Shown here: piece by piece, positions 59,424-63,978 of the stretch
How the letters are laid out: the number at the start of each line of letters is the position of its first letter
Numbering within the stretch: the stretch's first letter is position 1
From: Thermodesulfobium acidiphilum
GTDB taxonomy: Bacteria; Thermodesulfobiota; Thermodesulfobiia; Thermodesulfobiales; Thermodesulfobiaceae
Assembly: GCF_003057965.1 (NCBI RefSeq)
Contig: NZ_CP020921.1
Coordinates: 1,685,001-1,749,000 of the forward strand
Reading direction: 5' to 3'
DNA length: 64,000 nucleotides
Notes under the pieces: model-generated
What the model saw: only the letters and a program-made list of their open reading frames with translations
Told to the model about the DNA's origin: nothing
Database searches by the model: none
Made by a program: the position numbers and the translations under genes

Positions 59424-60014
59424 TCAGGCAGATTTTGAGGTAAGGATCTTTTCAACCATGTCACAGATTATGTGCTCAATCATAATATGACATTCCTGTA
59501 TTCTTGGAACGTTTTTTGACGGAACGCTTATACAGATATCAGATAGTTTTTCCATTTCATTTCCAGCCATACCTGTAAGCGAGATTGTGCTTATATGATA
59601 AAGTTGAGCAATTCTTAGCGCCTTTATTAAATTTTTAGAATTCCCACTTGTCGAAATGGCAAAAAAGACGTCACCCATTTCACCTAGCGCTTCAATCTGT
59701 CTTGCAAAAATGCTTTCATATCCAAAATCATTTGAAATAGCTGTAATAATTGAAGTATCAGTAGTAAGGGCTATAGCTTTTAGAGCTTTCCTTTCCAACA
59801 AAAATCTACCAACAAACTCTGCTGCAATGTGCTGTGAATCAGCAGCACTACCACCATTTCCCGCAATCAAAAGTTTTTTCCCAGACCTTAGCGCTGCAGA
59901 TATAACTTTAACGCTCATTTTAACAGTTTCTAAAAATCTATCATCAGAAAGCAACTTATCTTTTAACTCCAGGGCTTCAGATATTGCTTTTCTGATTTCA
60001 TCCTCTACAATCAT
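59424..60014 (-). CDS. gmhA: Phosphoheptose isomerase (GmhA-like SIS protein)
   Basis: GmhA converts sedoheptulose-7-phosphate to the heptose-7-phosphate precursor of LPS core or other heptose glycans. The SIS domain has GNGGSAADSQHIAAEFVGRF near 52-71, AISNDFGYESIFARQ near 91 and GDVFFAISTSGNS near 116. The metal-site residues appear in the C-terminal QECHIMIEHIICDMVE. The length is 196 residues. It overlaps the glycosyltransferase stop by four bases. No gmhB or hldE is in the window. Confidence 0.9.
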   Translation of the reverse strand: MIVEDEIRKAISEALELKDKLLSDDRFLETVKMSVKVISAALRSGKKLLIAGNGGSAADSQHIAAEFVGRFLLERKALKAIALTTDTSIITAISNDFGYESIFARQIEALGEMGDVFFAISTSGNSKNLIKALRIAQLYHISTISLTGMAGNEMEKLSDICISVPSKNVPRIQECHIMIEHIICDMVEKILTSKSA

Positions 60015-62398
60015 TTACTTTTCCTTTCAAAAAAGTTGAGCATCTCTTTAGAAAAATTTTGGATAGAAAACTTTTCCATGACAAAAGCTCTTGCCCTTTC
60101 TCCAAGTTCTCTGGCAAAATCTCTATCTTTAGCCAATTTCAACATTGCACTATACAATTCATCTTCATCAGGGAGAGCCCACTCCCAATCTGGATTATAT
60201 CCCGAGCTATTTTGACCTATTTTTTCGAACTTATAATTTAAAAGTATAGAATTGTCTTTATTCATAAACTCAAGGTTACCACCGTATGCTGTAGCAATAA
60301 CTGGTTTTCCAAGCCACATAGCTTCTATTAGAGGAAGGGCCATGCCTTCACAACTGTGCGGAGAAACGTATGCATCTGCAGCATTTAATATAGTAATATA
60401 TCCATCTCTGTTCGTAGTCTCATCCACAAATACAACGTTGTCAGTAATACCCAATTCTTTAATGTATTTTGCGAGTTTTACTTGATTTTCAGAATATTTT
60501 GCAGCCTGAAAGGTCTTAAATATTAAATATACATCGCTATATTCTCTTACAACCCTCGAAAGAGCCCTTAAAAGCAAAAACGGTCTTTTTCTGTCAAAAT
60601 CTCTGAAAAAGTCCAGTATAAACATAAAAACAAAAGAGTCATAAAAACCAAAGGTTGCTCGAAGATTCTTTCTGTGTTGTAATATTCTCCAATCGTAAGT
60701 GAATGGATACAAAAACTTATATACCTTTTTCCCTCCCGCTTTAATTAAAGCGCTTTTTACAAAATCTGAATAACACATAACTTCATCTACCAAAGAAAAG
60801 GCCTTAGGGTCATCAAAATACCTATCAAATTCCCAGTTCCAGATTGCAGATGTTCTGCCTTTGAAAATATTGCTTGATATATCTTTAAGATAAGCCAAAT
60901 CTTCTGAATTAATAAAAAATATTGTGTTATTAAATGATAGATTATTAACGTTAAAACAAGCAATATTTTTAATTTCCTCTTCAGAAACTCTCAAATTTGA
61001 TGTAACGGGCAAAAAGAAAAGCGAACACGGAATACCCAGTGAAGATGCCTTTCTAAAAAAGGATCTTGCTTGAACCCCAAGCCCAATCTTCGATTCAAAA
61101 AACCCAACGATGTTTATTCCAAAAGGGCTATGCTCAATACGAGATGTATCAGTAAGGTTGTAATTAACCCTTAAGATATCCTTCAATGTTACAGTACTTA
61201 TTATGCCAGTCATAGAAAAAGTCAAGCGTAAATCCAGTCTTGACTCAATCACACATCTTGCAAACCTACTTATAGAGCTGTATTTTGTGTGCAGAAAAGA
61301 AAGTATTGCCCTTACATTTTCTCTGTCAGGTAAATATGGATTCCTAAATCTCTTAAATATTTCTTCTGAATATCTTCTTCTTACTTCAAGAGGTATCCTA
61401 ATTCTTGTTAATGGAAGGTACTCAAAATAATATGGTAATTCCTCAAATTTTCTTTTATTTTGGAAAAAACTTTTGTTATAGTACTCGTTTACTAACTTTA
61501 TATACGATTTATTTATTGATCCAAAAAAGCTTACGTGATCGAATAGAAATAAATCATCCAGATAAAACCCACTAAATTCAAAAAGTGATATCTTCTTGAG
61601 AAGATTTTTTCTATTTACAAAATAATTAGATTCTTTAAATATGATATCTTCTTTTTTAACATTATAAAAGGTCAGAGTATACTGCAAATCATCTAATTCA
61701 AGATATTTTAGCTTTGATATCTCTTTCCTGTGAAAATAGGAGATATTAGCTTCAGTATTTTTTAAAGCAAATATCGATTCTTTGAAACGAATTACATCAT
61801 AATCATCCAAAAGATCGTATAAGCCCTTTACATCAGAAAGGCAGAAGATATTTTTCGATAAGTACAAACTTTTTTTAAATCCAACATAAGCAAAATATTC
61901 AAAAACATATGACAAAATCCAGTTTTTCGACTCATCCTTAGTAGATGTCCAAAGAACTTTATGCATATCCCTACATGAAATTTCTGACAAAAGTTCACAC
62001 AAAAAGAAAAATTTAATACCTCTAGATACCAATTCGTTAAAGAGTCTAAATTCTCTAATATCCTTTAAAAGGTCTACAACTACAACTACAAATTCAATGT
62101 CTGGATTGTTTTTTAGAAAACTATCCCTTAAATTTAGGGCATAGTGCATTTCGTCTTTGTTAATTATAGTAAACGCAACATCTTTGTGTTGAACAGGAAT
62201 CTTGGGAGAATAGTCAAAATTTATCTTAACGACTCTTAGATCTTCCCATAAATCCTTTGCTTTAAAAATCTCATATTTTATCTTTTCTAATCCCTTGCTT
62301 AACGAAGAAGCAAACCCCTTTTTCTGATAATTTTTTAAGGACTTTCTAAACGAAATATATCTTGAGAGCGAACTTTTAAATAACGTGTTTTTAAACAT
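60011..62398 (-). CDS. Two-domain glycosyltransferase, C-terminal GT4 type
   Basis: The C-terminal part (about 430-790) is a GT-B glycosyltransferase of family 4. It has the nucleotide-sugar motif with Glu684 and Glu692 (SCEGMALPLIEAM), IFKTFQAAKYSEN and NVVFVDETTNRDGYITILNAADAYVSP (shown in part: NAADAYVSPH). The N-terminal part (about 45-300) resembles a GT-A-like domain (VAFTIINKDEMHYALNLRDS, then FVVVVVDLL), so this is a probable fusion of two transferases. It contains no membrane segment. With gmhA it could build a heptose-containing glycan for LPS or for flagellin. The ATG comes one base after the stop of the upstream selenoprotein gene and has no strong ribosome site. Confidence 0.8.
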   Translation of the reverse strand: MFKNTLFKSSLSRYISFRKSLKNYQKKGFASSLSKGLEKIKYEIFKAKDLWEDLRVVKINFDYSPKIPVQHKDVAFTIINKDEMHYALNLRDSFLKNNPDIEFVVVVVDLLKDIREFRLFNELVSRGIKFFFLCELLSEISCRDMHKVLWTSTKDESKNWILSYVFEYFAYVGFKKSLYLSKNIFCLSDVKGLYDLLDDYDVIRFKESIFALKNTEANISYFHRKEISKLKYLELDDLQYTLTFYNVKKEDIIFKESNYFVNRKNLLKKISLFEFSGFYLDDLFLFDHVSFFGSINKSYIKLVNEYYNKSFFQNKRKFEELPYYFEYLPLTRIRIPLEVRRRYSEEIFKRFRNPYLPDRENVRAILSFLHTKYSSISRFARCVIESRLDLRLTFSMTGIISTVTLKDILRVNYNLTDTSRIEHSPFGINIVGFFESKIGLGVQARSFFRKASSLGIPCSLFFLPVTSNLRVSEEEIKNIACFNVNNLSFNNTIFFINSEDLAYLKDISSNIFKGRTSAIWNWEFDRYFDDPKAFSLVDEVMCYSDFVKSALIKAGGKKVYKFLYPFTYDWRILQHRKNLRATFGFYDSFVFMFILDFFRDFDRKRPFLLLRALSRVVREYSDVYLIFKTFQAAKYSENQVKLAKYIKELGITDNVVFVDETTNRDGYITILNAADAYVSPHSCEGMALPLIEAMWLGKPVIATAYGGNLEFMNKDNSILLNYKFEKIGQNSSGYNPDWEWALPDEDELYSAMLKLAKDRDFARELGERARAFVMEKFSIQNFSKEMLNFFERKSK

Positions 62399-62399
62399 A

Positions 62400-62675
62400 T
62401 TAAGTTACCACTATAAGTTCTTTGAAAAATAAAAATTTTTTCAAACCAATTCTTGTCTTATTTTTAAGATTTAATTCTTTAGGTATATAAATTTCTATTC
62501 CCTCCTGTTCAAAAACTTTATATGCTATTCCTTCCAAAGGCTCTCCAACTCTAACTGAAGGAGGTAAAGGGACCCTGCTTCAAGAAAAGCAAGACGAAGC
62601 ATTTATAAAAAAAATCTTTGATCCCTTTGATTTTATGTATTCTTTAGCCTCTTTATCAAATTCAAATTTAGGCAT
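62400..62675 (-). CDS. Predicted selenoprotein 2, Cys-x-x-Sec motif (in-frame TGA at codon 32)
   Basis: This is a 91-residue frame with one internal TGA at 62580-62582, read as selenocysteine. GGAGG stands five bases before the ATG. Residues 29-32 are C-F-S-U. After the TGA the frame stays open for 59 codons and holds PPSVRVGEP, IEIYIPKEL and KKFLFFKELIVV. The protein aligns with the gene just upstream: same Cys29 and Sec32, same P-S-V-R-x-G-x-P and Y-(I/V)-P-K. It has no signal peptide. It resembles small proteins I recall as a Cys/Sec-motif seleno-family with a HesB-like look; this was not verified. It overlaps the upstream gene by eight bases and ends one base before the glycosyltransferase ATG. 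Confidence 0.8.
62556..62582 (-). promoter_or_regulatory. Candidate SECIS hairpin of selenoprotein 2
   Basis: The RNA from the TGA onward can fold with TGAAG pairing to CTTCA, a C-C mismatch, then AGG pairing to CCT, around a nine-base loop starting with G. The apical loop begins six bases after the TGA, closer than in E. coli fdhF. It is a plausible bacterial SECIS but would need a model search. Confidence 0.45.
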
Positions 62676-62970
62676 TTTTACCTCCATCTAAAGCATATAT
62701 AAAAATATATTCCTTACCATAGGAACTTGTCTTTGCATCGATCACAAGATCTTTATCGTAAAAAAAATTTTTCGGCACATATACAACAACATCATCAAAA
62801 AATATACAATTATATTTATCAAATTCTTTCTTAGGTCTTCCCCATCTAACTGATGGTATTCCTGAACCAGTCCCTCAAGTGCTACACAACAAATCCCTCG
62901 ATGGCAAGACATATATTTCTTTGCCACTCTTCTCAATTAATTTAATTGCCTTTTTAGTTAAAGATATCAT
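62668..62970 (-). CDS. Predicted selenoprotein 1, Cys-x-x-Sec motif (in-frame TGA at codon 32)
   Basis: This is a 100-residue frame from ATG 62970 to TAA 62668, with a single TGA at 62875-62877. Residues 29-32 are C-S-T-U. The 68 codons after the TGA include GIPSVRWGRP, VVVYVPKNFF and a C-terminal YIFIYALDGG. Codon 32 and the Cys three residues before it match the downstream gene exactly, so this pair is not explained by a random stop or frameshift. No strong ribosome site precedes the ATG. The protein has no signal peptide and is probably a cytoplasmic thiol-selenol redox protein. A different frame here (from 62936) has no such similarity. Confidence 0.78.
62851..62877 (-). promoter_or_regulatory. 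Candidate SECIS hairpin of selenoprotein 1
   Basis: From the TGA onward TGGT pairs with ACCA around an eight-base loop (TCAGGAAT). The TGA itself can pair with TCA, with a five-base bulge between. The TGA-to-TCA span is 27 bases, the same as in the second gene. The stem is weak, so support is modest. Confidence 0.35.
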
Positions 62971-63108: not shown

Positions 63109-63978
63109 ATGTCATTAACCGATTACAAAGAAAAGCTTCAAAATGCTGTTGACCTAGTAAATAAGAACGAGCTTGACCAGGGAAGAAAAGTATTACAAGA
63201 ATTAATTGATGAGCTTCATGAAAATCAAACAAACGAAGAAAAAGATATCCTTGCAACCGCACTGGATATACGAAGCCTTATTAGAGCCTATGGTAGAGAT
63301 TTTGAGGGTTCCATGAAGGACCTTGACGAATCGATTGCTCTTAGGAAATTTCTTTTTAGCGAAAAGTTTAGTAAAAATCAGGAAGACATTGCGAGACTAT
63401 TAACTCACAAGGGAATAAACCTAGGACAAATAGGTAAGCTTGACGAAGCCCTCTCTCAAATCAAGGAAGCAATTAATTTGTATGAAGAGTGTTATAAAGA
63501 TGGTTCGCTTTCCAACACTGGACTCTATACCCATGCCCTAAATCAACTCGCAATTACACAAAAAAATATGAACAATTTCGAATCTTCCTTTGAAGCTTTC
63601 AACAAAGCTATTGATATTTTAGAAAAGGAAGTAAAAGTTGATAACTCTCTTAACTTAGACCTTGCTGTAACTTATATGAACAGGGGCATAAACAATGTAG
63701 AAACATCAAAAACTCAGGACTCAATCGACGATTTTAGGAAAAGTATTGACATTGTTATAGATTCACTAAAAGAAAGGCCAGAACTTGTCGGACTTTACTC
63801 GAGGCTGGTATATTACTCCATTCTTTCAATGGCAAGATCAGGCCTTATATTGCCAGATAAGTTGGAAAAATTTAAAACAGAATCAGAATACGTGTTTAAT
63901 ACATATGGCATGACTGAGGAAGCAGAGTTTTGGATGACTAAAATCGGTGAACTATTTGCCCCACCACAAAGTTCTTGA
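63109..63978 (+). CDS. TPR-like helical repeat protein, unknown function
   Basis: This soluble 289-residue protein is built of helix pairs. TPR-like units are seen around 85-130 (GINLGQIGKLDEALSQIKEA), 140-175 (NQLAITQKNMNNFESSFEAF) and 185-215 (MNRGINNVETSKTQDSIDDF). There is no signal peptide. A GGAGG site precedes the ATG. It is divergent from the selenoprotein operon. TPR proteins usually bind other proteins; the partner is unknown. The 22 bases after its stop end the window. Confidence 0.8.
   Translation: MSLTDYKEKLQNAVDLVNKNELDQGRKVLQELIDELHENQTNEEKDILATALDIRSLIRAYGRDFEGSMKDLDESIALRKFLFSEKFSKNQEDIARLLTHKGINLGQIGKLDEALSQIKEAINLYEECYKDGSLSNTGLYTHALNQLAITQKNMNNFESSFEAFNKAIDILEKEVKVDNSLNLDLAVTYMNRGINNVETSKTQDSIDDFRKSIDIVIDSLKERPELVGLYSRLVYYSILSMARSGLILPDKLEKFKTESEYVFNTYGMTEEAEFWMTKIGELFAPPQSS

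Follow-up and report, generated by a model that had tools for sequence, protein, structure and literature searches.

Organization of the locus

The window analysed, a stretch of 64,000 nucleotides from the closed 1.77 Mb genome of Thermodesulfobium acidiphilum, harbours two adjacent small genes on its minus strand, designated here A and B (Table 1). Each of them contains a single in-frame TGA at codon 32, preceded by Cys at codon 29 (C-S-T-U in A and C-F-S-U in B), exactly as claimed in an earlier note made from the sequence of this DNA. The same note expected standard gene prediction to leave the stretch empty or to call a wrong frame. Indeed, if TGA is taken to terminate translation, no ORF of 100 aa is present in the ∼710 bases that separate the glycosyltransferase gene from the TPR gene, and both genes are lost by ordinary gene calling.

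The ATG of gene B is located within the last codons of gene A, resulting in an overlap of 8 bases, and is preceded by a Shine-Dalgarno-like GGAGG; the A-B tandem is probably translationally coupled. A gap of a single base separates the stop of gene B from the ATG of the glycosyltransferase gene (62398), the end of which is in turn overlapped by a gmhA-like gene, followed by flagellar genes. At the congeneric locus L031 both the TPR and the glycosyltransferase flanks are kept. The Rfam scan of the region for known RNA gave chance matches only.

Table 1. Features of the predicted selenoprotein gene pair and its surroundings, in window coordinates.
Feature	Position	Strand	Evidence
Gene A, predicted CC/Se-motif (IscA/HesB-fold) selenoprotein, 100 aa, C29-S-T-U32; ATG at 62970, TAA stop at 62668	62668..62970	-	Frame reading, family profiles, AF2 model
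Predicted Sec UGA codon of gene A (codon 32)	62875..62877	-	TGA in 4/4 congeneric genomes
Gene B, predicted CC/Se-motif selenoprotein, 91 aa, C29-F-S-U32; ATG at 62675, TAA stop at 62400	62400..62675	-	NF041239 match, AF2 model
Predicted Sec UGA codon of gene B (codon 32)	62580..62582	-	TGA in 4/4 congeneric genomes
SECIS-like hairpin of A, loop AGUUA, 23 nt after UGA, G at +28 (62850)	62840..62857	-	Agrees with published bSECIS rules
SECIS-like hairpin of B, loop AGUUA/AGUUC, same register as A, weaker bulged stem	62545..62562	-	Consensus with A
Glycosyltransferase, 795 aa, group 1 domain near C-terminus	60011..62398	-	PF00534, E 8e-16
gmhA-like phosphoheptose isomerase	59424..60014	-	TIGR00441, 203 bits (cut-off 209)
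Divergent TPR-repeat protein, upstream boundary of the transcription unit	63109..63978	+	PF13424; same place in congeneric L031

Decoding of the in-frame TGA codons

The evidence for recoding, the family membership, the conservation and the fold resemblance presented here are all computed. The genes named in the earlier note as a check on the selenocysteine reading were all found in the genome: selB adjoins the gene of tRNA-Sec (selC, TCA anticodon), selA is present, and so is selD, which itself contains an in-frame TGA. An in-frame TGA is also carried by a formate-dehydrogenase-like gene of the same genome.

The likeness of the residues downstream of the TGA, on which the earlier note had relied, was reproduced by a BLASTP alignment of A with B that runs across this codon (E 1e-5, in a single comparison), and relatives likewise align past the TGA, their residue at this place being Sec or Cys. 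An independent profile was built from 55 family sequences, with no sequence of A or B included. The part following the TGA alone scored 24.4 bits (A) and 42.8 bits (B) against this profile, the best of 1000 shuffled versions of each reaching 8.2 and 6.0 bits, respectively; the whole of gene A scored 42.2 bits (E 3e-12). A and B were found in tandem, both with their TGAs, in all four genomes of the genus; in the fourth of these only B exceeded the profile threshold, and A was taken from the adjoining sequence. The segment LLCSTUGTGSGIPSVRWGRPK is invariant in A across the four genomes, and the dN/dS values beyond the TGA are 0.12–0.28 for A and 0–0.10 for B, with changes that are mostly synonymous and without indels. 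A sequencing error at both codons, which the note had named as a possible refutation, is excluded because the same TGAs are present in four genomes. The reading of TGA as selenocysteine is thus supported by the Sec machinery, the conserved TGAs, the downstream homology and purifying selection, and A and B are very probably genuine Cys-x-x-Sec selenoproteins with a predicted IscA-like fold, in which UGA would be decoded as Sec by SelB and tRNA-Sec.

Evidence of readthrough does not by itself give the identity of the inserted residue, and UGA might instead be read as another amino acid through near-cognate suppression, or be reassigned. This is very unlikely, given that tRNA-Sec, SelA, SelB and SelD are all present, that relatives have Cys or Sec at the UGA position, and that most of the family has its loop in the same register, with G at +28; moreover, UGA does not appear to be reassigned as a whole, because three congeners use it to terminate gene B. 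Although TGA is formally a stop in table 11, it is hardly credible that the two genes have decayed, or that their frames end at TGA and yield only the first 31 residues, a reading refuted in practice by the conservation of both TGAs in four genomes, with purifying selection and homology beyond them, and opposed by the overlap of the start of B with the end of full-length A and by the presence of the Sec machinery.

SECIS-like hairpins

According to the published rules, bSECIS elements have a stem of 4–16 bp and a loop of 3–9 nt whose first two nucleotides include a G, and are located 16–37 nt from the UGA (PMC13188914). The hairpin of gene A, with its stem of 5–7 bp, agrees with all of these rules. 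The loop and distance of the hairpin of gene B are as in A; its stem is bulged, and in this strain the MFE fold is a different one. The consensus of A and B, comprising eight sequences, contains six pairs, one of them compensatory, with 96% of the cells paired. The folding energies in the genus of the window are only modestly better than those of synonymous shuffles, and here the hairpin is regarded as supportive, not as proof of a SECIS. As for the stem score for AG[U/G]U loops, set up after the sequences had been inspected and taken as supportive only, values as high as that of A were obtained for ∼0.1% of TGAs; B scored low.

Numbered from the U of the UGA codon, the apical loops of most Sec relatives, like that of A, open at position 27 or 28; they read CGUGUAU, AGGU or AGUU with a G at 28, a register common to most of the family. 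Decoding would be helped by such a hairpin, in whose apical loop a G occupies position 28 in this numbering. Sec members with a CxU motif were also observed in another, unrelated genome group (L040, L043 and L044), where a fully paired stem of 8 bp, capped by a GGUC loop, is found 17 nt after the UGA.

Family membership and distribution

Gene B matches NCBIfam NF041239 with 59.6 bits, above the curated cut-off of 40, and gene A with 36.2 bits (E 4.8e-9), just under it, which suggests that the latter is a diverged relative and not a member in the strict sense. The suspicion voiced in the earlier note that the family may already be known proved correct: the CC/Se motif family (seleno)protein NF041239 is tabulated as CxxU in a 2026 review and predicted in Moorella (PMC13188914), and it is listed also in PMC9312934. 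It is a hypothetical protein predicted in Moorella thermoacetica, to which the tables consulted assign no function. A and B therefore add members to a predicted family that is already on record and do not represent a new kind of selenoprotein. They share with NF041239 the length, the profile match over the whole length, the CxxU motif and the Sec/Cys exchange, but differ in that two Sec copies here form an overlapping tandem, followed by a glycosyltransferase gene. At the family position, where A and B have CSTU and CFSU, the relatives carry CGGU, CGSU, CCG or TCV. The Cys-x-x-Sec motif is also common to the redox selenoproteins GrdA and the SelW-like proteins; Pfam and NCBIfam scans gave no match of A or B to these families.

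Among 399 sampled genomes of the phylum of Pelosinus propionicus, 89 carry the family, most with one TGA. Elsewhere the family is seldom encountered: a domain-wide set of 386 genomes gave 7 carriers, and the genus of the window accounts for four of these. Pelosinus has the CC form of the family and no selB over the cut-off. With a four-row alignment as profile, only two loci were found in the genome contigs. The combination of a tandem pair with a glycosyltransferase, singled out in the earlier note as unfamiliar, stands in part: the layout A-B-glycosyltransferase is real, but tandem or clustered sets of the family are present also at L068, L097 and L098, and the glycosyltransferase hardly recurs as a neighbour.

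Two further paralogs are encoded in the same genome. At L017:1501-1785 (plus strand) lies a Cys paralog (GTCVGDIKFPPSV), with 91 bits to NF041239; with it, the family is represented in this genome by both a Cys form and Sec forms. The other, at L020:1369-1731 (minus strand), is a remote paralog of 120 aa with CGAU and one in-frame TGA. It is kept, as C-G-A/S-U, in four of four congeneric genomes (L020, L034, L035 and L036), scores only 18.3 bits (E 0.0018) against NF041239, and failed the post hoc stem score mentioned above.

Predicted fold and possible function

AlphaFold2 models computed from five-row alignments had pLDDT values of 84.6 for B and 80.5 for A. The best PDB matches of both models in Foldseek were IscA, SufA and related proteins, with TM of about 0.5–0.6, probability near 1, an E value of 1.9e-3 at best, which is marginal, and 10–15% identity. 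In agreement with this, hhalign of 63 family sequences against IscA, SufA, HI1723 and Aq1857 gave a probability of 82% (E 1e-5), and the Sec column falls on the first cluster Cys of IscA. A sequence search of the PDB with the family alignment as query returned nothing useful. From these models and alignments, A and B are predicted to adopt an IscA/SufA (HesB)-like fold. The HesB-like selenoprotein TIGR01911 is likewise small and named after the HesB/IscA fold, and its Sec is expected at the place of the first cluster Cys; its motif, however, is UxGP as opposed to CxxU in A and B, neither of which matched TIGR01911 in the NCBIfam scan with E up to 1.

The relatives at L058, L062 and L073 have trxA directly downstream, and those at L102, L105 and L106 are adjoined by a CoA-disulfide reductase-rhodanese fusion, with a NUDIX hydrolase also there. 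No thioredoxin gene adjoins A and B in this genome. Because some relatives adjoin thioredoxin genes, thiol/selenol redox chemistry is pointed to, and the most likely role of A and B would be that of a thioredoxin-linked thiol/selenol redox protein, or of one involved in sulfane-sulfur handling. Redox chemistry at the Cys/Sec pair seems reasonably likely; thioredoxin as the partner is put forward more tentatively, on the strength of gene neighbourhood. The pair would serve as a redox site in the form of a Se-S bond, as a selenol, or with sulfane sulfur or a metal bound to it, and it would probably be reduced by the thioredoxin system.

A and B might alternatively be specialised for the synthesis of heptose or envelope glycan, together with the glycosyltransferase and GmhA as operon partners. 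The tight coupling of A, B, the glycosyltransferase and gmhA is consistent with such a role, as are the flanks kept at L031 and a CgeB-like glycosyltransferase that adjoins one distant member (L039). With this one exception, however, the glycosyltransferase does not recur and is missing from the most frequent neighbour families of the sampled relatives; the neighbour therefore says little on function, and it was set aside as a functional partner. We consider the envelope-glycan role rather unlikely.

It is also unlikely that A and B are A-type Fe-S carriers with a selenolate ligand, working like IscA and SufA. The predicted fold and the position of Sec in the column of the first cluster Cys would suit a carrier, whereas the C-terminal CxC of the A-type carriers is absent from both proteins, with no Cys after residue 32 in B and one in A. 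Nor did A or B match PF01521 (Fe-S_biosyn) in Pfam; one relative showed a sub-threshold match (E 0.15). Since the CxC that completes the cluster site is missing, A and B are most likely not carriers of Fe-S clusters.

If the thioredoxin-linked thiol/selenol redox reading is carried further, the CC/Se family may be a branch of the IscA/HesB fold that has given up the carrying of clusters in favour of selenol redox (or sulfane-sulfur) chemistry; A and B would form a hetero-oligomer that has two Cys-x-x-Sec sites, and in other branches two Sec residues would be adjacent (UU) at the same site. We offer this as a speculative conjecture. The fold, the family-wide SECIS-like loop register and the neighbours together yield a testable hypothesis for a predicted selenoprotein family that is listed with no function. 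All three are additions, not found stated in the literature, the coverage of which was incomplete.

Relatives with two adjacent UGA codons

The family membership of A and B is ordinary; the most unusual observation lies outside the window. Eight relatives (L087, L089, L090, L091, L092, L093, L094 and L095) contain two adjacent in-frame UGA codons, predicted to encode Sec-Sec. The table of the review gives one Sec for the NF041239 family (PMC13188914), and literature searches on adjacent Sec residues, with incomplete coverage, found nothing usable. Such relatives pose the question of how one SECIS could serve two adjacent UGA codons. Family sequence continues downstream of the UGA pair (UUxAFYAPSGxxGKP in most), and a conserved hairpin of 7–8 bp is located ∼24 nt after the first UGA codon, its loop being mostly GGN at position 28. 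One example, L094:1076-1372 (plus strand), scores 35.4 bits against the family profile, just below the cut-off. Five of these relatives were included in the tree, where they group in a single clade (99/97).
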